Shown here: positions 1 through 37,532 of the stretch, piece after piece | Layout of the letters: each line of letters opens with the position of its first letter | Position numbering within the stretch: position 1 is the stretch's first letter | DNA from: Desulfosporosinus acidiphilus SJ4 | Lineage (GTDB): Bacteria; Bacillota; Desulfitobacteriia; Desulfitobacteriales; Desulfitobacteriaceae | Assembly (NCBI RefSeq): GCF_000255115.2 | Contig: NC_018068.1 | Span: 4,497,977 to 4,561,976, forward strand | DNA length: 64,000 bases | Direction: 5' to 3' | Program-made: the position numbers and the translations under genes | The notes under the pieces: model-generated | Databases searched by the model: none | Told to the model about the DNA's origin: nothing | Seen by the model: only the letters and a program-made list of their open reading frames with translations

Positions 1-1105
1 TTAACGATTTTGTAAATCCTACATCGATGGTTGTGCTTGCAGGACTCAAGGCTATGTTTGTCGCAGAATTAGGGACAGTAACGTGACAAGAGGCAGATTT
101 ATTACCGTCTTGAGTTGTAACAGTAATTGTTGCCGTTCCACCATTAATCGCTAAAACCTTACCGTTCTGGTCAACCGTTGCCACCGAAGGATTACTTGAT
201 TTCCACGTAACGGCTTGATTGGTCGCATTACTGGGGGTAATGGTTGTAACTAAAGTATCGTTGCTTCCAACTGCAATTGTATCCATTGTTTTGCTGAGAG
301 CTATGCCAATGACTGAACCTGATGATGAATATAGAGTTGCTGCTTGTGGAAATTTTGTTTTATCCCAAGTAAAACCATGTTGTGACAAAAATATGTCAGT
401 AACATTGTAAAACAAATTATTTAGGACACCGTCATTTGTCGCATCAACTTGATACCAAAATCCATTAAGTTGAACCATATTCCAGGCATGAAAATCCTCC
501 GGCTGATTACCATTGAGATAGCCCTTAATTATTATCGTTTTAATTCCTGCGTCATTCAGCATTTTTTCCATTAACATAGCATATCCTTGACATACAGCTC
601 TCCCATATGTTAAAGCATCATATGCGCTATGATATTGAAGACTGTAATCATAAGATACGTGACTCGTTATGTAATCGTGAATCGCTTTTTCCTTTTCGTC
701 AGGAGTCATGCCAGGAGTAATAATGCTTGATACTATGGATTGTGCTTGACTAGTAACAAAGTCCTCCTCAGCCTTTGTCGTAATGTAGCTTACCGTGAAG
801 GTTAAAACAGTATCATATTTACTTATGACATTTGCGTTATATTGTATATCTGAGAAAGAAAGAGCAAGATAATCATCTTGAGTAGACGCTTTATTCATCG
901 TAGACATTAGGTTCCCGTTTTCTAATGTTTGGACATCTCCCGTATACTTAATTTCAAAAGGAGTCTCTCTGTCTACCATATCCTGATAGATTAAGCTTTG
1001 AAGGTCAGTCAAATTTGCCGCTGTTTGCATTGTATCTGCCAATGTCACACCTGGAAATGCGAATATACTCAATAATACTATTAACCCAAGTAGTAATTTT
1101 CTCAA
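1..1105 (-). CDS. Secreted transglutaminase-like protein with Big2 domains (3' end off window)
   Basis: An open minus-strand frame begins at a TTG (1103-1105) behind the ribosome site GGTGAGGAG and runs off the left edge, giving 368 residues. Residues 1-23 form a signal peptide ending TLA-DT. A transglutaminase-like core follows, with the expected triad visible: Cys172 in AVCQGYA, His206 in FHAWNMV and Asp221 in QVDATND. From about residue 266 there is a bacterial Ig-like (Big2) domain (VTWKSSNPSVATVD), and a second one starts at the window edge. Such proteins act outside the membrane as peptide crosslinkers or cysteine peptidases on the wall; the substrate is unknown. A cyclic-di-GMP riboswitch precedes it, so expression should follow cellular c-di-GMP. 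The C-terminus, possibly with a wall anchor, is outside the window. Confidence 0.85.
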   Translation of the reverse strand, partial: MRKLLLGLIVLLSIFAFPGVTLADTMQTAANLTDLQSLIYQDMVDRETPFEIKYTGDVQTLENGNLMSTMNKASTQDDYLALSFSDIQYNANVISKYDTVLTFTVSYITTKAEEDFVTSQAQSIVSSIITPGMTPDEKEKAIHDYITSHVSYDYSLQYHSAYDALTYGRAVCQGYAMLMEKMLNDAGIKTIIIKGYLNGNQPEDFHAWNMVQLNGFWYQVDATNDGVLNNLFYNVTDIFLSQHGFTWDKTKFPQAATLYSSSGSVIGIALSKTMDTIAVGSNDTLVTTITPSNATNQAVTWKSSNPSVATVDQNGKVLAINGGTATITVTTQDGNKSASCHVTVPNSATNIALSPASTTIDVGFTKSL

Positions 1106-1751
1106 TATATTCTCCTCACCTTCTCTTAATATAAATAGTCACTATTTAAACAATAGCGGCCAATTTCCTTACTGTTCGGTAGCTTGGCAATCATCAGCAA
1201 TGACTGGAAGACCCATAGCTTTGCGTCCTTGGCCTTCGCCAAGTTTGCCTTTGCTGCTAGTCTAAAATCCTTATCTGCCTTATTGTAACATCTGCAAATT
1301 GAATATTCTGTCGAAATTTAGAGCATTAACAAGTTACAAAGAATAATCAATAGGGGAATAGCTAATTTCTGCAAATTAGGAGTTTCGATGGTTGATCTAA
1401 CATAAATTAATCTTGAAATCAATGTTGCAGTTACCTGACTAATTAGCGAAATTAACCACACCATTAATTGTTGCTTTTTTGCGCCTCAGTGCTTTCTTCA
1501 TGGCTAAGAAAATATTAGACATCTTCCCATCAAAAATCCTTATTAAGTTTTTGATTCGTATAGACACAAAAAATCCTCCTTTTAGCCCGTCTAAATCCAA
1601 ACGGTTAAAAGAAGGATACTATTTTTTTAAATTAACGAAATCTCATTCAGTACTCCGCTGGATTACTAAAACCAACTTCGCTAGATTTGCCCATAAATCC
1701 CTTTCAAATTCTAATTTAAAATCCCACAAACCCTTGTGCCATAAGCCTTAC
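1106..1751. other. Long non-coding stretch holding the riboswitch
   Basis: Apart from the c-di-GMP riboswitch at 1176-1257 and the leader leading to the gene at 1105, this AT-rich stretch shows no supportable gene. The promoter of the riboswitch transcript is presumably between about 1260 and 1350, but I could not fix a convincing -35/-10 pair. From about 1480 a plus-strand frame stays open, yet its first ~90 codons match nothing I recognise. Confidence 0.5.
1176..1257 (-). promoter_or_regulatory. Cyclic-di-GMP class I riboswitch (GEMM-I)
   Basis: Read on the minus strand, the region holds the conserved GEMM-I blocks in order: GGCAAAC, a P2 stem capped by a GNRA-type loop (TTGGC-GAAG-GCCAA), the invariant GGACGCAAAGC, then the GGGTCT side of the second stem and the closing GCTACCG. 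It ends about 70 nt before the TTG start of the transglutaminase-like gene. Small hairpins (for example AAATAG-TGA-CTATTT) lie between aptamer and ribosome site and may form the expression platform; no clear terminator is visible, so translational control or antitermination cannot be told apart. Confidence 0.93.
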
Positions 1752-2795: not shown

Positions 2796-3800
2796 TTAAT
2801 CGTCCCGATGGTTTTCTTTTCCGTTCTTACCCTTTGCCTCATCGCGATGCTCTGAATTTGCCGAACCTTTTATCGTCATCATGGTTCCTCGGGTTACTGA
2901 AGCTTGCGGAGCAATCTGAACTTGTTGAGTCCCATGATTATCCTCATCCTGGTCTTGATCATCCCGAGGTAGCGTTTTCTTTTGTTTCAGGGATTTCTTA
3001 AAGTTTTCTAAAGCTGTATCGGCTTGCTTTTCTAAAGCCTTGGTATTGCTTGTAACCGCTGAAGTACTTGTAGTATTAGAATTCACGGCAGCAGGGTCAG
3101 CAGTTGTTTGAGACGTTGATGCAGCAGCAGGTGCAGTGGTAGTTGTATTAGATGCAGAAGATGCTTTTGAAACAGCCTTTTCCATAGAACTTACAATATT
3201 TAGAGCCAGCCTCTGGGCCGCTTGAGGAGGAAGCTTATCTAATAAACCGCTTAACACCTTAATATTGTTAGTATTCACGTTAGATAAGGCTATTGCCAGA
3301 GTTTTAGCTTCCTGAGAATTTGGATCTTTAACTTGATTAATAAAATTCTGGGCTTGTGTAATTTTATCCGTATATTGAGACAAAGAGGCTTCAGCGGCAT
3401 CCGGCTTTCCTTGCTGCAGTAGTTTATTAGCTTCAGCCAATTTTGCCAAAGCATGGTGTTCTTCAATTGAAGCCTTATTGATTGGATTAAAAGTTAATAG
3501 GAGCTGAATTTTACCTATGAGATCTGTAAACCAGTTTTCAGGTGCAACGGTGTTGCCATTGCTGTCAACAACGGGCGGGATCGTGATGGAAGAAGATGTT
3601 GTAGAATCTGAAGTCGCAGGAGATACGGTTGTGGGTACAGTCGGATTCAAAGGAGGTGCGACCGTTGTAGTTCCTGTCGTTGCAGACGAAGAAGAAACGG
3701 TATCTGCAAGTGTTAGGCTTGAACCCACAGGAAGAGTTAATAATGCTAACGTCAAAGCGAAAACCATTTTCTTTTTCATATGCTGCTGTTTGTTAATCAT
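2796..3800 (-). CDS. Secreted Ser/Thr-rich protein, DUF5667-like
   Basis: A 334-residue exported protein. A signal peptide (core about residues 10-30, cleaved near TLADT) is followed by a Ser/Thr/Pro-rich low-complexity stretch to about residue 85. A helical region (about 90-210; ALAKLAEANKLLQQGKPDAAEAS) resembles the DUF5667 helical domain found in exported proteins of Firmicutes. A second Ser/Thr/Ala-rich linker and a highly charged tail (DDQDQDEDNH, HRDEAKGKNGKENHRDD) close the protein. The chosen ATG has AAGGGG about 12 nt upstream; an internal ATG at codon 8 is the alternative start. The function is not known; an extracytoplasmic structural or envelope-stress role is possible. Confidence 0.75.
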   Translation of the reverse strand: MINKQQHMKKKMVFALTLALLTLPVGSSLTLADTVSSSSATTGTTTVAPPLNPTVPTTVSPATSDSTTSSSITIPPVVDSNGNTVAPENWFTDLIGKIQLLLTFNPINKASIEEHHALAKLAEANKLLQQGKPDAAEASLSQYTDKITQAQNFINQVKDPNSQEAKTLAIALSNVNTNNIKVLSGLLDKLPPQAAQRLALNIVSSMEKAVSKASSASNTTTTAPAAASTSQTTADPAAVNSNTTSTSAVTSNTKALEKQADTALENFKKSLKQKKTLPRDDQDQDEDNHGTQQVQIAPQASVTRGTMMTIKGSANSEHRDEAKGKNGKENHRDD

Positions 3801-3914
3801 GTTGTTATAATTCCCCTTTTCTTTGTCTTTAGTACGTACTATTATTACTTACGCAGCAAAGGAAAATTTTAAGGGGGCTCGATTAATTATTTTGTCGAAA
3901 AATGGGACACCTTC

Positions 3915-13986: not shown

Positions 13987-14013
13987 GAGACAGAAGAACC
14001 GTCCCCCTTGTCT
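13987..14013. repeat. Dispersed CCGTCCC hairpin motif
   Basis: The sequence GAGACAGAAGAACCGTCCCC with flanking TTGTCT recurs in related form at 30217-30242 and twice at 50802-50858. It overlaps the last codons of the HD-GYP gene by two bases only. The core forms a short imperfect hairpin and appears to be an intergenic mobile or structural repeat. Confidence 0.5.
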
Positions 14014-15253
14014 ATAAGACTTTTCTTGCCAAGGGAAGGAGTTGTTCATCAACGCTTATACCTGAACCGCGCTGAATTATTTCCAGTGCTTCAGCAGCTG
14101 ACATTGCCTTCCGATAGGGCCGATCCTCCGTTAAGGCGGCAAACATATCGGCAATGGTCATGAGTCGGGATCCGGTATCAATTTCTTTGGCTGTTAATGC
14201 AAAAGGATAACCTTTGCCGTCAAGGCGCTCATGATGATGGGCGGCCCATTCAACCATTCTTGTGGGGAATCCGGCTTCCGTCAGCAAACGATGCGTATAA
14301 TAAGTATGGGTACGAATGATATCTGTTTCGGCGACGTCTAAAGGGCCTTGTTTATCCAAAATCTTTTTCGGAATCGAAAGTTTCCCTAAATCATGCAGTA
14401 GACCTGCTACATATAATTCATGCCGTTGCTGATCACTCCAACCTAATCCTTCTGCCAAACGTTCTGCTATTTCAGCCACAGACCGCGAGTGACGGGCTGT
14501 GAATCGGCTCTTTTGGTCAATTAAATCTGCAAAAGTAACTGCAAGGTCGTCCGTAAACCCATGTATTTCCAGTTCTCTTACCGCAGGCAGGTGCCATTTT
14601 CCGCACAATAACCCTAAAGCAATTTGCAGCAAATCCGACTGTTCAATATCCAGCCAAAACGCTTCTTTACGGGCGATTTGTTCAAAGGCAGCGGCTATTT
14701 CAGGAAAAAATAGGACTCCGCTTTCCCAGGACACCCATTGCAATAGTTCATCTCGTTCTTTACGTGTGTACTGCCGGCGAGTCAGACGCAAATCCACCTG
14801 ATCTGCTAACGATAGAATTTTGGCCATGAGGGTGATTTCCTCAGGCCGTACCTTTAAGACATTGCGGCATGAGATAGGCGTTTCATGATGATATTTAATT
14901 GCAGAAGAAAGAATCTCTCCCGCTGGGAAACGTTTAACAAGGTCCGAACCCACAAGACAGTGTTGTCTTAGGATTTTCGGGTTTCCGAAATGGGTCCTGA
15001 AGCAGCCCAATGCTCCAATATCGTGCAGCAGCCCGGCAATCGTTAAATGAACCAGTTCCTTTTTATTGAGACCCAGGCAGCGTCCTAAACGCATGGCAAT
15101 ATAAGCCACTCGTTCGCCATGCCGCTGCCCGATTTTAAATGTTAACCCTCGTTCAATCTCTTCATCCACTAAACCCAGATCAAGCGCACGGGAAAAGCTC
15201 CACATTCTCCGGATGTAAAAGGCATCCTCGGACACAGATATTCTATCCACCAA
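14012..15253 (-). CDS. Double HD-domain protein with C-terminal HD-GYP
   Basis: A 413-residue cytosolic protein with two HD phosphohydrolase domains. The first (about residues 40-150) keeps HGERVAYIAMRLG and the metal motif GLLHDIGALG but lacks the GYP block. The second (about 240-410) is a complete HD-GYP: ARHSRSVAEIAERLA, GLLHDLGKLSIP, the HHERLDGKGYP signature and MTIADMFAALTEDRPYR. HD-GYP domains hydrolyse cyclic-di-GMP to GMP, so this is a likely c-di-GMP phosphodiesterase. It starts at TTG 14 bp after a globin-coupled sensor gene, implying one transcript, and could connect O2 sensing to c-di-GMP; that link is inference. Confidence 0.9.
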   Translation of the reverse strand: MVDRISVSEDAFYIRRMWSFSRALDLGLVDEEIERGLTFKIGQRHGERVAYIAMRLGRCLGLNKKELVHLTIAGLLHDIGALGCFRTHFGNPKILRQHCLVGSDLVKRFPAGEILSSAIKYHHETPISCRNVLKVRPEEITLMAKILSLADQVDLRLTRRQYTRKERDELLQWVSWESGVLFFPEIAAAFEQIARKEAFWLDIEQSDLLQIALGLLCGKWHLPAVRELEIHGFTDDLAVTFADLIDQKSRFTARHSRSVAEIAERLAEGLGWSDQQRHELYVAGLLHDLGKLSIPKKILDKQGPLDVAETDIIRTHTYYTHRLLTEAGFPTRMVEWAAHHHERLDGKGYPFALTAKEIDTGSRLMTIADMFAALTEDRPYRKAMSAAEALEIIQRGSGISVDEQLLPLARKVL

Positions 15254-15267
15254 TTTAATTAATCCCT

Positions 15268-16515
15268 CTATTCTCTGAGGCCCATTTGTGCCAGTGACGT
15301 CGCTGAATTAGCGACATCTTCAGAGGCTGCTCCGATCTGGCTTGCGGTCTGAGCCAAGGCATCAATCTGTTGAGCGATTCCCTGAACCTGTTGGATACTT
15401 GAATTGATCGCCGTCATAATATCTCCAAAGCGATTAACAATCTCTCCGGCCTCCTCAGCCGCACTCTGCATTGCTTGAGTAGTTTCCACAATAGACTTGT
15501 TCACTGCCGTGGTATTTTCTTTGGTCAGGGCAATAAGAGCGCTAATTTCTTGAACAGATTGTTCGGAATGGTTTGCCAGTTTTTTCACTTCTTCAGCGAC
15601 AACTCCAAACCCACGGCCGCTGTCCCCAGCTCGAGCAGCTTCAATGGCTGCGTTTAAGGCCAGTAAGTTGGTCTGAGAAGCAATTTCTTTAATGACATCT
15701 GTAACGGAAGCAATGCGGGCTGAACTATGGTCTAGCTCATTCATTTTATTTTGCATTTCTGAGGTCATGCTTGCTAAATGCATCATCGTTTCAGAAATCA
15801 TTTGGATTTTACGAGCACCTTCTTGTGCCAATGCATCCACTTTTCCCGAAAATTCCGCTGCCTCGGAAGCATTATTGGAAATTTGTGCTGTTGCTTCGTT
15901 CATTTCAGCCGCAGAAGCCGCAGTTTCCTCAGAAGTTGCCGCTAAAGCCTGACTTGCTTCATTTACTCTGCGCTGCAAGCTGTCAATCTCAAATAACGCT
16001 TTTTCTAACTCTGCTTTCTTATCAATCTCGTGCATGTAGGATTGAATATAGCTTGCCATAACAACCTGCTGATCAAAACTCAAAATTCTTTGAAAGGCCA
16101 GGGCTGATCGCATAGCAAGGTCAGTTTTTCTTTTAAAATGCTTGTAGATTAAGGGTATAACTTCATCGCACAAAACCTGATTGGCACTTAAATAATAAAA
16201 CGGAGGCAAGTTAATTCGATTGTGGACATCACCAATCGTCACTCGCCATTCCATGAATTGTTCGTTAATCTTTTCCGGGCAAAGTGACAATAAATATTTC
16301 TTCATGGTGACTTTAAGCTTATCTACTGATGAAAACTGGTCAATAATTGCTTTGAGAGCCGGAATCGTAACAACGTGAGCATAGAAGTTCGTAACAATTT
16401 GATCGACATCCTTTTCGATAATCACCCGAACCTCTCTAAGAAGGTTTAACTGCTCAGCATCAATCTTCAATAATTGGGTGGACTCTGATAAATCAAATTG
16501 GTGTAGTTGTATCAA
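15268..16515 (-). CDS. Globin-coupled methyl-accepting chemotaxis protein (HemAT-like)
   Basis: A 415-residue soluble sensor with no membrane helices. Residues 1-165 form a protoglobin sensor domain with the proximal haem ligand expected at His98 in [18 protein letters not shown] coiled-coil linker leads to an MCP signalling domain (about 200-415) with the conserved hairpin tip [21 protein letters not shown]-type segment (about 285-310) and [15 protein letters not shown]. It should bind O2 through haem and signal to CheA/CheW or to a partner. The start is TTG with AAAGGGTG 7 nt upstream. It is the first gene of a pair with the HD-GYP protein. Confidence 0.93.
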
Positions 16516-20804: not shown

Positions 20805-23800
20805 TTAGTTTGTTGTAGCAGCTGAAGCCACCGGGGAATATTGACTTGTACCGGAAGCATTTACTGCCTGTACTTTGTAATAATAGGTTGTATTGGCCCA
20901 GAGACCTGTATTTGAATAACTATTCGTCGTTACAGTCGCTATATGACTGAAGGCACCTGTGGAGGAAGTTGAACCATAAATATAATAGGATGTTGCGCCA
21001 CTTACTGCATCCCAGCTGAGGTTAATTTGATTCGAACTTACAGGAGATGCCGTAACAATTGTCGGCGCAGATATTGTATTTGACACATTGGTTGTACCAT
21101 TTAAACTGGTTAAGACACTGTCCGGAACAACGGCTGTTCCGCCGAAAACTACCTCTTTGGTAATAGTGCCGGAGATACTCCCCGTATAATTAAGTGTTGA
21201 CTGCTCCACAGGATTACTTACCAAGATAAGTGGTGAAGATGTTATGGAAGCCAAGACTGAACCGGCTAAAGCGTCCGCATAATTTTCACCGGTAGAGATA
21301 TAGCAAGTACTGAAATCTAGTTGGCCGGCGAATGCTTTGAGCACACTAATATTTGTATCATATCTATCTTGCCCGCTAAGCCTCGTAGGTGAGGGGAGCT
21401 GGCTAAGAATTGAGTCACTGATAACTCCAGTACCACCCACAACATAAGTGCTTTGAATTCCCTTGAGATAGGTTTTTACGCTGTCCGGAAGAGTATTTTG
21501 GGTAGTCAGCAGGATTGGCATTCCTTTCATTGCGGCAATAGGGGCAATCGACAGGGCATCCGGGAAAGTTTCGCCGCTGGCAACGACTGCTTGAGTGGTT
21601 TGCCCAAGTGCTTGAGCAATTTTAACAGAAGTTTCATAACTATCGTTTCCTGCAATTCTTGTGACTTGTATTCCCATAGATTCAATAGTTTGTTCAACTG
21701 CTGAAGAAATAACACCTGCACCACCCACGATGAAGACGCTTTTGACTTTAAGGCGCGAAAGCTGTTGCTTTGTATCTGCGTTCAAGCTATCCTTGGTGGT
21801 CAGCAGCAATGGGGCATTATATTTATTGGCAAGAGGCGCACTGCACAAAGCATCGGAAAATGTTTCACCACTGACTATGACAGCATAGTAAGAGGTAAGC
21901 CATCCTGCTTTGGCGACCTCCGCTGCAGTTCCGTAGGAGTCTTGCCCAGCTAATCGTTGGGAGGAAATTTGGGAAATATTAGTGGGAGTGGAAGTAGAAG
22001 TTGAGCTGCCGGATCCCGTCGTCGTCGCATTAACGACTGATGAATAGGTGCTCAAGCCGGTACTGCCCGCCGCCTGGATCTTATAATAATAGGTTGTATT
22101 TGGCGAAAGATTGGAGTCTGTATAATTGGTGGTTGAAATTGTTGCAATATTTGTGTACGTATCTGTGGGCGATGTTGCTCTGTACACATAGTAGGAAGTT
22201 GCATTACTAACCAGATCCCAAGTTAAATAGATTTGGTTTGTGCTTAGGGCTGTGGCCGTCGGATTGGTAGGAGCCGTCAAGGCACCGTTAGTAACCGTCG
22301 TTGTGGCGGGAACAATGGCAGAGTCTGCACTGCTGCCAACGCTTCCTACTGCCACCACTTTATAATAATAAGTAATACCTGAGGACAAACCGGAATCTGT
22401 GTAATTTGTGGTTGTCGGTGCACCAATAACTGTGAAACTCCCCAGGGCTGAAGTTGATCTATAAACATTATAATAAGTCGCATTACTTACAGGAGACCAT
22501 GTTAAATATATTTGATTGGTATTTGCAGGTGTTGCGCTAAGATTAGTCGGAGCAGTTATTGCGCCATTAAAATAAGTCGTTGTCGCGGGAACAATGGCTG
22601 AATCCGGGCTGCTGCCCGAGTTTCCTAATGCTTCCACCTTATAATAATAAGTAATACCCGATGACAAGCCGGAATCTGTATAATTTGTAGTTGTCGGTTC
22701 ACCAACGATGGAATATGTTCCGGTAGATGAAGTTGATCTGAACACATAATAACAAGTTGCATTGCTCACAGGGTCCCAGGTTAGGTTAATCTGAGTACTG
22801 CCGGAAACGGTCGCCATTACATCGGTAGGGGCTGACAAAGCGTTATTAGTAAAATTAGCTGACGTGGATGCTATCAGCGAATCTGGACTCGAACCAGCGC
22901 TGTTTACGGCCTGCACTTTATAATAATACGTTGTATACTGTTGCACAGCCGAATCTGTATAATTTGAAGTTGTTGCCGCCGTAATCATGGTAAAAGGTCC
23001 TGAAACCGAGGTAGCTCTGTAAACGGAATAATAGTTTGCGTAGTTAACCGGACTCCAGGTCAGATATACTTGATTGGTGCCTGAAAATGAAGCTGTAAGA
23101 TTTACAGGGGCTGTCAGCGCAATGTTAGCAGTAGTCGTTGTCGCATAAACTATTGCAGATTCTGCACTCGTTCCGGTACTTCCACCCGCCACCACTTTGT
23201 AATAGTAGGTTGTATTTGCTGACACACTGGTATCCGTATATGGCGAAGAGGAAGGGACGCCAACAATAGAATAAGGCCCGGAGTACGAGGTTGATCTATA
23301 TACGTTGTAATAAGTTGCATAACCTACAGGGGCCCAAGTTAAGAATACTTGATTGCTGCTTTGAACCTGAGCCGAGAGATTTGTGGGTGCTGACAGAACA
23401 CCATTAGAATTAGCAGGTATCGCATATACAATTGAAGAATCCGAACTTGTTCCGGCGCTGTTTACTGCCCGAACTTTATAGTAGTATGGGGCGTTTGATG
23501 TCACGCTATAATCCGTGTAATTTGTTGTGGTGGGACCGGCAACAAGGGAATAAGTTCCAGAAACGGACGTTGATCTATAAACATAATAATAGGACGCATT
23601 GCTCACTGGACTCCAGCTTACATAAATTTGATTACTATTTGTTGCTGTTGCAATGAGATTTGTTGGCGCCGCAGGGGCACCACTTGAGCTCGTCGATATT
23701 GTATAAACTATTGAAGAATCCGCACTTGTTCCGGCAGCATTGGCAGCCGTTATTTTGTAATAATAGGCAACGTTCATCGATATACTGGAATCTGTATAAT

Positions 23801-24047
23801 TTGTAGTCGTGGGATTGCCAATAATGGTGTAATATCCATCCGGAGAGGTCGCTCTATAAATATAATACGCGGTTGCACCACTAGCGGGATTCCAAGATAA
23901 GTATATTTGGGTATTATTCAATACTGTGGCGGTAAGATTAGTCGGAGGCAGCGGAATAGTATCCGCCAGAGTGTTCTGGGGAAAAATCACTCCAATAATC
24001 GTTAAACAAATCACTAAAGCCAATAGTTTGTGATAGAACCTTTTCAT
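20805..24047 (-). CDS. Giant surface protein: eight fibronectin III domains and three CWB2 repeats
   Basis: A 1080-residue exported protein. The ATG at 24047 has AGGAGGAGG 8 nt upstream and starts a signal peptide (MKRFYHKLLALVICLTIIG, cleaved near TLADT). Seven fibronectin type III domains follow (each ~92 residues, about 36-680; repeated core YYYKVxAxxSAGTSxDSAIV). Three cell-wall-binding type 2 (PF04122-like) repeats come next (about 695-980; RLAGQDSYGTAAEVAK, VSGETFSDAL, VFIVGGAGVIS), and an eighth FN3 domain ends the protein. CWB2 repeats anchor clostridial proteins to the wall through secondary polymers; FN3 arrays suggest adhesion or substrate display. A strong terminator follows. An IS1634 element has inserted 170 bp upstream of its start. 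Confidence 0.93.
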   Translation of the reverse strand: MKRFYHKLLALVICLTIIGVIFPQNTLADTIPLPPTNLTATVLNNTQIYLSWNPASGATAYYIYRATSPDGYYTIIGNPTTTNYTDSSISMNVAYYYKITAANAAGTSADSSIVYTISTSSSGAPAAPTNLIATATNSNQIYVSWSPVSNASYYYVYRSTSVSGTYSLVAGPTTTNYTDYSVTSNAPYYYKVRAVNSAGTSSDSSIVYAIPANSNGVLSAPTNLSAQVQSSNQVFLTWAPVGYATYYNVYRSTSYSGPYSIVGVPSSSPYTDTSVSANTTYYYKVVAGGSTGTSAESAIVYATTTTANIALTAPVNLTASFSGTNQVYLTWSPVNYANYYSVYRATSVSGPFTMITAATTSNYTDSAVQQYTTYYYKVQAVNSAGSSPDSLIASTSANFTNNALSAPTDVMATVSGSTQINLTWDPVSNATCYYVFRSTSSTGTYSIVGEPTTTNYTDSGLSSGITYYYKVEALGNSGSSPDSAIVPATTTYFNGAITAPTNLSATPANTNQIYLTWSPVSNATYYNVYRSTSALGSFTVIGAPTTTNYTDSGLSSGITYYYKVVAVGSVGSSADSAIVPATTTVTNGALTAPTNPTATALSTNQIYLTWDLVSNATSYYVYRATSPTDTYTNIATISTTNYTDSNLSPNTTYYYKIQAAGSTGLSTYSSVVNATTTGSGSSTSTSTPTNISQISSQRLAGQDSYGTAAEVAKAGWLTSYYAVIVSGETFSDALCSAPLANKYNAPLLLTTKDSLNADTKQQLSRLKVKSVFIVGGAGVISSAVEQTIESMGIQVTRIAGNDSYETSVKIAQALGQTTQAVVASGETFPDALSIAPIAAMKGMPILLTTQNTLPDSVKTYLKGIQSTYVVGGTGVISDSILSQLPSPTRLSGQDRYDTNISVLKAFAGQLDFSTCYISTGENYADALAGSVLASITSSPLILVSNPVEQSTLNYTGSISGTITKEVVFGGTAVVPDSVLTSLNGTTNVSNTISAPTIVTASPVSSNQINLSWDAVSGATSYYIYGSTSSTGAFSHIATVTTNSYSNTGLWANTTYYYKVQAVNASGTSQYSPVASAATTN

Positions 24048-24218
24048 CAATTTTCCTCCTCCTGTATCAAAAAGAGTATCCTTATAATGCTTTAGAGTAA
24101 GTGCCAATTCTTGGCAAATGCAATAAATCGTTTACGACATAAAACTCTCGAATCCGATAGTATATTCTTGTTCAAGTGTTCATTATCCTTCTTATAAATG
24201 GAAACATTTTTCACTAAA

Positions 24219-35828: not shown

Positions 35829-37442
35829 TTAATGAGCTAATAATTGATTCAGTTGATTTTCAAGATCCAGCGAAACACCATTATAATTTCCAACAACCGT
35901 CGATTGTTTGATGTAGCCCTTATTGAACAGCAAGAAATAGTTTAAACTTGAAGGCAGCGAATTTTGAGGAATCATTGCCACAAATCCGCCTTGTTTAGCT
36001 GCCAAGGCCGCTGTCACCAGAGCATCCCCTTTAGGATTCCCTGATGTCACATCACCTTGCCGTACGAGTCCGGAGGCAAAATATAAGGGTGTTTGAGGTT
36101 TTTGCGTATTAAATAAATTTTGGAAGATAATATTTTGGGTGTCATACTGATCATAACCGCCCCAACGTTTGACATTATACTGAGAACCCAATTCATTTTC
36201 CACAGATGTCCCGATCACTGCTGTTCCTCCCAGCAAAACAACGTTGCTGGCCTTAAGGTCTGTCAAGGCTTTCGCCGTCGAGGACGGTACGGAATCTCTT
36301 TCAGTGAGTAAAATCGGACTTCCCTGCTCAGCCGCAAAAGCGCTGATGGCAATAGCATCGGGGATTGCGGCATAATTAGCGATATAGACCGTCTGTGTAG
36401 AATCAATTCCTACTTTCGCGGATATCTGTGCTGCAGTATCATAGGCTTGCTGCCCTGCGATCCGAGTTACAGTGTATTGGCTGCTCAAACTATCTTGGAT
36501 CGTTTGGGATACTGCAACGGTACCACCGACGATGTAGATGTTTTTAGCGCCTAAACTTTGAATCTCCGCTAAGGTTCTGTCATCCAATTTAGAAGAGTTA
36601 GTCATGAGGATCGGAGCATCAAGTTTCTTCGAAAGCGGTGCAGCAGCCAAAGCATCTGAAAACTGGTCGTCTCTTGTTAAGATGACATTTGCAGAACCTG
36701 AAGCCCAACCGGTTTGGGCAACACTAATCGCTAAGGAAACGTTATCCTGTGAAGGCCCACCAATTCTTGTGTTCTGAGTATATGCCTGCTGTACCACGAT
36801 AGTACCAATGATATGTCCGGCATATAGAACATTCACGTTTCCTAATTGTGTCGGAGTCATGGTAAAGGTGAACGTTCCATCACTAAGCGTTGTATAGGAC
36901 GATGACGATGCCCCTACCAGCGAACCATCCACGGTACCTGATCTTTGGGTCAACGGATTTCCGTTCGAATCGGTTACTTTCACAGTAATCGTATTATTAG
37001 CATTGAGAACCAAGGGAGCTGTGGCAAGCGCTTTAGCATTCAAGACTGTGAGAGTTCCTGAAGCCAAGGCTGTTCCCAGAGCACCCTCGCGAATTACTAA
37101 TTGATAATCTCCGGCATTTTGCAACGTCACATTATTAATTGTATAGTTGCCGCTACTTCCGGATACTTGAAACAATTTTGATACCCCATTAGAGTCCGTA
37201 ATGGTGGCGCTAGCTACTGATCCACTAAAAGGATTTGAGTTATTATCCCAAAGCTGAACATTAACGTTCGATGTCTCTCCGGCAATTAGTGTCGAATCAT
37301 CACTGGTCGCAAAGCTGAGCCACGCCAACCAGGTGCTTCCGTCATTCGTGCTCGCAGATGCTATTCCAGGAATCATTCCTATCAGCAAGAACACAATTAC
37401 AAGTACACTCATCACCACTTGTGTCCGTCTCTTTTTACCCAC
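35829..37442 (-). CDS. Cell-wall-binding (CWB2) surface protein with Ig-like N-terminus
   Basis: A 537-residue exported protein. The GTG at 37442 has AAGGGG about 10 nt upstream and opens a signal peptide (KKRRTQVVMSVLVIVFLLIG, cleavage near IASAS). Residues about 35-215 form one or two Ig-like/filamin-type beta domains (VTDSNGNPLTQRSGTVDGS). Three CWB2 repeats follow (about 225-535; RIGGPSQDNVSLAISVA, ILTRDDQFSDALAAAPL, IYIVGGTVAVSQTIQDSL), which bind wall polymers non-covalently. The ligand or enzyme role of the N-terminal part is unknown. It lies downstream of the ABC permease gene but with its own terminator. Confidence 0.9.
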   Translation of the reverse strand: MGKKRRTQVVMSVLVIVFLLIGMIPGIASASTNDGSTWLAWLSFATSDDSTLIAGETSNVNVQLWDNNSNPFSGSVASATITDSNGVSKLFQVSGSSGNYTINNVTLQNAGDYQLVIREGALGTALASGTLTVLNAKALATAPLVLNANNTITVKVTDSNGNPLTQRSGTVDGSLVGASSSSYTTLSDGTFTFTMTPTQLGNVNVLYAGHIIGTIVVQQAYTQNTRIGGPSQDNVSLAISVAQTGWASGSANVILTRDDQFSDALAAAPLSKKLDAPILMTNSSKLDDRTLAEIQSLGAKNIYIVGGTVAVSQTIQDSLSSQYTVTRIAGQQAYDTAAQISAKVGIDSTQTVYIANYAAIPDAIAISAFAAEQGSPILLTERDSVPSSTAKALTDLKASNVVLLGGTAVIGTSVENELGSQYNVKRWGGYDQYDTQNIIFQNLFNTQKPQTPLYFASGLVRQGDVTSGNPKGDALVTAALAAKQGGFVAMIPQNSLPSSLNYFLLFNKGYIKQSTVVGNYNGVSLDLENQLNQLLAH

Positions 37443-37532
37443 TTCTTTTTCCCCTTTCCGGCTTATCAGATGATAAAAAATACACAATCCTAGTTCAACT
37501 CTGGAAACATCACAGGACGCAACGACTTCAGA

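Follow-up and report, generated by a model that had tools for sequence, protein, structure and literature searches.

A possible series arrangement of Spo0A promoter and c-di-GMP OFF riboswitch in Desulfosporosinus leaders ahead of an FNYGAH-motif peptide and a secreted TglA-like cysteine enzyme

In a 64,000-nucleotide stretch of the Desulfosporosinus acidiphilus SJ4 genome (the window, meaning the whole stretch that was analysed), a c-di-GMP-I (GEMM-I) riboswitch aptamer ahead of a gene for a transglutaminase-like (TG) protein with Big2 repeats is itself preceded by a promoter with a perfect Spo0A (0A) box at its -35 position, and the same arrangement of box and spacer stands before riboswitch-linked genes for a small membrane peptide in this genome and in three sibling genomes. 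Reading the aptamer, its pocket bases, the catalytic triad of the TG protein, the box, its spacing and the terminators of sibling leaders directly from the DNA, we propose that Spo0A and c-di-GMP may act in series on these leaders, and that this control may be eroding at the window copy. We lean modestly towards the view that a Spo0A-type promoter, a c-di-GMP-I OFF switch and a surface or membrane gene form a small unit in part of the genus, with the window copy as an eroded member. We are somewhat more tentative, a little short of even confidence, about the fuller reading, in which a set of Desulfosporosinus leaders would place a Spo0A promoter and a c-di-GMP OFF riboswitch in series and thereby control both the FNYGAH peptide and a secreted TglA-like cysteine enzyme. 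Neither the 0A-box promoter nor the OFF layout of the sibling leaders featured in the first-pass annotation of this DNA.

In promoters activated by Spo0A, the 0A box occupies -35 and is separated from the -10 element by 21-22 nt, and this is the layout found upstream of the window aptamer. The box, at positions 1309-1316 on the minus strand, reads TTTCGACA, the reverse complement of the 0A box, and shows the core TGTCGAA on the plus strand. The -10 element TACAAT (1282-1287, minus strand) lies 21 nt away, counted from TCGACA, and is preceded by TGT, which makes it an extended -10; the promoter as a whole spans 1316-1282 (minus strand). TGTCGAA is given as the core motif of the 0A box in the relevant part of an earlier report (PMC3485338). 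The genome encodes two Spo0A_C proteins, and binding and activation by Spo0A at the window box are putative.

The box TTTCGACA occurs at -56 to -67 in 6/6 leaders that were chosen by protein or aptamer similarity and not by the box itself, namely those of the TG gene and the small gene of this genome, two in genome G011 and one each in G008 and G003. It precedes none of the 11 other riboswitches of this genome and, in that orientation and place, none of 29 further distinct aptamers of the genus (30 were printed, one being the genome's own copy; the regular expression matched no aptamer in L065 or L072). When the two G020 leaders and that of G007 are counted as misses, the comparison becomes 6/9 against 0/40 with the box (Fisher p 6e-6), a count that leaves out the internal second riboswitches of G011 and G028, which have no perfect box, and the first riboswitch of G028, which a contig end truncates. 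Accepting any 0A core within 150 nt changes the counts to 6/9 and 2/40 (p 1.5e-4). Because the leaders are related rather than independent, these p-values are only a guide. Across six leaders the box is 100% identical, compared with 44% for the 18-nt spacer and 31% for the upstream flank, in a comparison that takes in G013, a leader found via the box. The pattern TTCGACA-N20-22-TAYAAT, which was derived from the same leaders, has just two matches in the genome, those at the TG and small-gene loci, and none in the reversed control. The box is absent at the other loci where an aptamer precedes a TG gene in the genus (G020 a and b, G007, and in G011 and G028 the aptamer that immediately precedes TG), as it is at six order-level loci whose TG genes follow tandem aptamers.

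How far the box should be ascribed to Spo0A can be judged against promoters elsewhere in the same genome. By eye, TAGACA-N21-TATAAT was identified as the promoter of the genome's own spoIIE and GCGACA-N22-TATAAT as that of its spoIIGA, and the boxes of both match the 0A core at just five of seven positions, a weaker match than that of the riboswitch-leader box. Such imperfect boxes at sporulation promoters lend some weight to the explanation that the TTTCGACA element is the site of another regulator, or an unusual -35 element, unrelated to Spo0A. So does the loose pattern TTTCGACA-N20-22-TANWAT, which is not enriched in 29 genomes (75 matches against 74 in the reversed control). A 21-nt gap is found in 24 of these 75 loose matches, and half of the 24 (12/24) carry an extended -10, compared with 3/51 at 20 or 22 nt (p 2.6e-5, for a split made after the matches had been seen). 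Among this subset of 12, the only matches of the 75 to be checked, eight have a c-di-GMP-I aptamer downstream (one of them weak, at 38.5 bits), and the other four precede genes for beta-helix-like secreted, secreted repeat, chemoreceptor-like and enoyl-CoA hydratase-like proteins, as judged by eye from the translations; that one subset promoter seems to precede a metabolic gene again favours an unrelated regulator. Against this stand the perfect 0A core, its placement at -35, and the spacing of 21/22 nt that the leaders share with the spoIIE and spoIIGA promoters of the same genome, and we regard an origin unrelated to Spo0A as rather unlikely.

Two further elements were noted in the course of these scans. 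A TTTCGACA-N21-TAAAAT site without an extended -10 lies at 3866-3900 of the window, upstream of a gene for a DUF5667 protein (2796-3800). The weak match at L143:579-661 is a divergent GEMM-I-like element (38.5 bits) with a changed core; a TTTCGACA-N21 promoter lies upstream of it, and the gene that follows encodes a secreted-looking protein.

The window aptamer occupies positions 1174-1258 on the minus strand and matches RF01051 at 70.2 bits (gathering 35, E 1.9e-13) in a covariance search of its own genome, in which it is one of 13 c-di-GMP-I matches. This search bears out the first-pass annotation, which had placed a GEMM-I aptamer upstream of the gene. A model built from 29 aptamers scores it at 92.5 bits, a circular value for the window copy, which is among the 29 sequences. 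No second aptamer was found upstream in the window up to E 0.5 in L015, and none that was credible with the 29-aptamer model. The genes behind other aptamers of the genome appear, by eye from their translations, to encode chemoreceptor-like, CheW-like, HD-GYP-like and response-regulator-like proteins.

The pocket of the window aptamer has a G before the GC pair, an A after GC46 and the canonical ACCGAA 3' end, which we take to be G20, A47 and C92. The clan's winning Rfam label is RF03167 (c-di-GMP-I-GGC; 63.4 bits, gathering 59, E 1.3e-12, cmscan of the window), and this label is what would favour a GGC variant specialized for a different ligand. The RF01051 bit score is higher, however, and the RF03167 consensus has a G after GC46, at the A47 place, where all 29 aligned aptamers, the window copy among them, have A. 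This criterion was taken from the model consensus and the naming rule of the GGC class deduced; the name itself reportedly stems from a paper on variant riboswitch classes. We accordingly rejected the altered-ligand variant, to which we would assign a very small probability. In the part of a simulation paper that deals with the roles of pocket bases, A47 stacks between two ligand guanines and is required (PMC9049102). Since the window copy carries A, and not the G of RF03167, at this ligand-stacking position, we read it as c-di-GMP-binding; judged by its bases, the pocket is an ordinary c-di-GMP pocket. Elsewhere, an A at the G20 position was seen in the aptamers L009, L012, L066 and L027:687-771 and, by eye, in the first aptamer of G011 (L098). 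In L027 the A20 aptamer and a G20 aptamer form a tandem ahead of a TG gene. An A at the G20 position is the cGAMP-type signature.

The remainder of the window leader is less regular. A GNRA tetraloop docks in c-di-GMP-I aptamers, and in its place the window copy has GAAG, the sole non-GNRA loop among the 29 aligned aptamers, GNRA being a usual feature that the RF01051 model does not demand. The genome's own L010 and L011 lie outside this alignment, and their loops read GAAA by eye. At the place of the sibling terminator there is a weak hairpin (1140-1158, minus strand; -5.1 kcal/mol for the core, -6.9 with flank) with a broken U-tract, so that the window leader, with a hairpin of about -5 to -7 kcal/mol and an antiterminator duplex of -7.3, lacks the combination of strong terminator, U-run and competing antiterminator that marks a terminating riboswitch. 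Sibling leaders, by comparison, have eight predicted hairpins in five genomes with energies of -11 to -19 kcal/mol, most of them with a run of at least five U behind, though the U-run of the G008 sibling is also broken. Seven competing duplexes in these leaders range from -8.9 to -18 kcal/mol, the weakest being only slightly stronger than that of the window. The sibling aptamers have a 5' edge (in most, UAGCGAUAA) that complements the 5' arm of the terminator (UUAUCGCUA), a layout from which we infer that these leaders are OFF switches. A purine-rich ribosome-binding region (GAGAAGGTGAGGAG) was located by eye at 1112-1125 (minus strand) of the window, and a fold comparison gave no support for a switch acting on the ribosome site of this leader (mean pairing 0.46 free and 0.36 with the aptamer forced).

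The TG/Big2 gene reads on the minus strand from a TTG start at 1105 to position 2, an in-window part of 368 aa, and runs outside to a total of 545 aa. Its Transglut_core domain (PF01841, E 3.1e-16, 60 bits against a cut-off of 23) covers residues 124-222 (440-736, minus strand) and holds Cys172, His206 and Asp221; the same protein matches Big_2 (E 4.9e-53) and by inspection has a signal peptide. The three residues are invariant in 9/9 aligned genus sequences and in an alignment of 32 sequences, the window protein being counted in each, and the earlier description of an exported protein with an intact Cys-His-Asp triad is thus upheld. As to the extent of the gene, it runs past the left edge of the window and the frame breaks inside the Big2 array, about 0.5 kb beyond that edge and after 545 aa, with a further Big2 stretch of 456 aa in another frame beyond the break. 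The break could be a sequencing error. The Big2 repeats fall outside the conserved unit, the G011 relative being just 282 aa long.

The predicted model of the TG region (mean pLDDT 87.2) finds its best fold match in TglA of S. pyogenes (9crn; Z 19.6, rmsd 3.6, 218 residues), which covers nearly the whole domain, followed by the TGase 4xz7 (Z 12.7, rmsd 3.2, 139 residues). Later matches are to amide synthases, LapG, pseudomurein endoisopeptidases and human transglutaminases (Z 9 to 11, ∼120 to 145 residues). Both triad and fold are transglutaminase-like. The fold is compatible with a protease as well as with a cross-linker, the two roles named in the first-pass annotation, and we propose a putative protease-like role for the protein at the cell surface. 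Elsewhere in the window, the HD-GYP phosphodiesterase of the first-pass annotation was recovered as an HD-GYP-type protein at 14012-15253 (HD_5, E 1.8e-44); its gene adjoins that of a protoglobin chemoreceptor, the two spanning 14012-16515. The window also encodes two CWB2 cell-wall-binding proteins (20805-24107 and 35829-37487), one of them with seven fn3 stretches.

A TG match was found in 31 of the 80 genomes searched, the source genome included. c-di-GMP-I aptamers (Rfam) lie upstream in 9 of 25 relative TG loci, two aptamers being present in eight of the nine; this 25-locus set had 1.5 kb flanks and left out L040, L042-L044 and matches without a fetched locus. Among nine TG loci of the genus, five have an aptamer before TG (that of the window, those of G011 and G028, and two in G020), and with the 29-aptamer model none was found at the loci of G022, G004 and G023. 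The G007 locus has a decayed aptamer before TG, at 26 bits. Across the Bacillota, a model (R1) built from the genus and order aptamers found no aptamer up to E 0.5 in any of the 80 TG loci of named genomes, which were the best 80 of 560 relatives, had flanks of at most 3 kb (some ended by contig ends) and included, as L152, the genus member G004.

These pairings bear on the first-pass explanation of the locus, that a working c-di-GMP riboswitch controls the TG/Big2 gene and that nothing else about it is special. In its favour, a significant aptamer with a canonical pocket lies directly upstream, TG genes follow such aptamers at nine of the 25 relative loci, and the association itself has been published for Bacillota, where c-di-GMP-I riboswitches in tandem precede COG1305 (yebA) (PMC12452182, in the portion concerned with these genes). 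Yet the GAAG loop, the weak terminator, the want of a clear ribosome-site switch and the frame break all speak against it, and it leaves unexplained the 0A-box promoter that the window leader has in common with the small-gene leaders; we think it improbable, more so than an origin of the box unrelated to Spo0A. Of the first-pass statement that the riboswitch controls the gene, the position of the aptamer stands, but the same four features make the claim of control at the window copy weaker than was held, and the 0A-box promoter is the more interesting fact. The state of hairpin, loop and frame points to erosion of the window copy, although its platform might belong to another mechanism.

The small membrane-peptide gene and the TG gene stand together in G011 and G028, where the order is aptamer, terminator, small gene (with the FNYGAH motif), aptamer, two terminators and TG. 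In the source genome it lies behind an aptamer of its own, 98 kb from the window locus (L008). The peptide has a single helix and the FNYGAH motif in L087 (C3:4400533-4400649 of the source genome), L083, L098, L084, L085 and L086. All six of the best-scoring copies of the gene (five genomes, E up to 3.4e-7) have an aptamer upstream, and none of 14 weaker matches that were scanned has one at gathering score, L101 having been left out.

In the arrangement that we propose, each regulatory unit would begin with a sigma-A promoter that has an 0A box as its -35 element, a 21-nt spacer and an extended -10, and would continue with the riboswitch and a surface or membrane gene. The ancestral riboswitch would be an OFF switch: when c-di-GMP is absent, the 5'-edge strand of the aptamer would pair with the 5' arm of the terminator and transcription would go on, and when it is present, the aptamer would fold, the terminator would form and the gene would be silenced. 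If the promoter requires Spo0A~P, expression would be expected as stationary phase or sporulation sets in, and then only while c-di-GMP is low. The window copy would have kept pocket and promoter as tetraloop, terminator and reading frame degraded, so that its control by c-di-GMP has probably been weakened or lost.

The arrangement bears on how commitment to sporulation is linked to c-di-GMP in clostridia. Work on C. difficile, in the part that treats sporulation, reports that c-di-GMP inhibits early sporulation, and that none of the riboswitches appears to affect sporulation-related genes under conditions not favouring sporulation (PMC8653836). With an 0A box and a c-di-GMP riboswitch in one leader, the two signals would meet there directly and physically, and the promoter predicts that a small group of surface genes is under the joint control of Spo0A and c-di-GMP; the window copy would exemplify a riboswitch that loses its output with its pocket kept. 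What is new here is the 0A-box promoter upstream of the riboswitch, c-di-GMP-I riboswitches before TG-like genes being already known from the published tandems (PMC12452182, in the portion cited above), and our literature search found no paper that joins a Spo0A or 0A box with a c-di-GMP riboswitch.

Compared with known systems, the promoters of these riboswitch leaders resemble those of spoIIE and spoIIG in having an 0A-like box at -35 with 21/22 nt to the -10 element, but differ in their perfect 0A core and extended -10, and their activation by Spo0A is putative. Among surface enzymes linked to c-di-GMP, LapG shares its core fold with the TG domain (Z 10.6, rmsd 4.6 to 5.0, 130 residues), although the fold of S. 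pyogenes TglA is a much closer match and LapG, in the LapD/LapG system under c-di-GMP, is controlled by protein sequestration and not by a riboswitch. The window aptamer is like other c-di-GMP-I members (RF01051) in its consensus structure, its pocket bases and the surface-protein gene downstream, and unlike the usual member in its GAAG loop, its weak expression platform and the 0A-box promoter upstream. The class I switches of C. difficile are described, in the relevant part of one study, as off switches, with one downstream gene rising via its promoter instead; among them Cdi-1-12, which precedes the metalloprotease gene zmpI, is a class I OFF switch on a gene for a secreted peptidase, whereas the window gene encodes a TG-like fold and not a zinc protease (PMC6200980). 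The Bc1 riboswitch of the B. cereus group, according to the portion that describes it, binds c-di-GMP and hardly regulates; it joins a c-di-GMP-I aptamer to two successive terminators, as is seen before TG in G011 and G028, but neither strong terminator is present at the window copy (PMC11218506). The published tandems, as far as the cited portion describes them, place the same class before TG-like genes, as do the relatives examined here with their two aptamers at eight of nine loci; the window locus differs in its single aptamer, and those of G011 and G028 in the small membrane-peptide gene set between their aptamers (PMC12452182).
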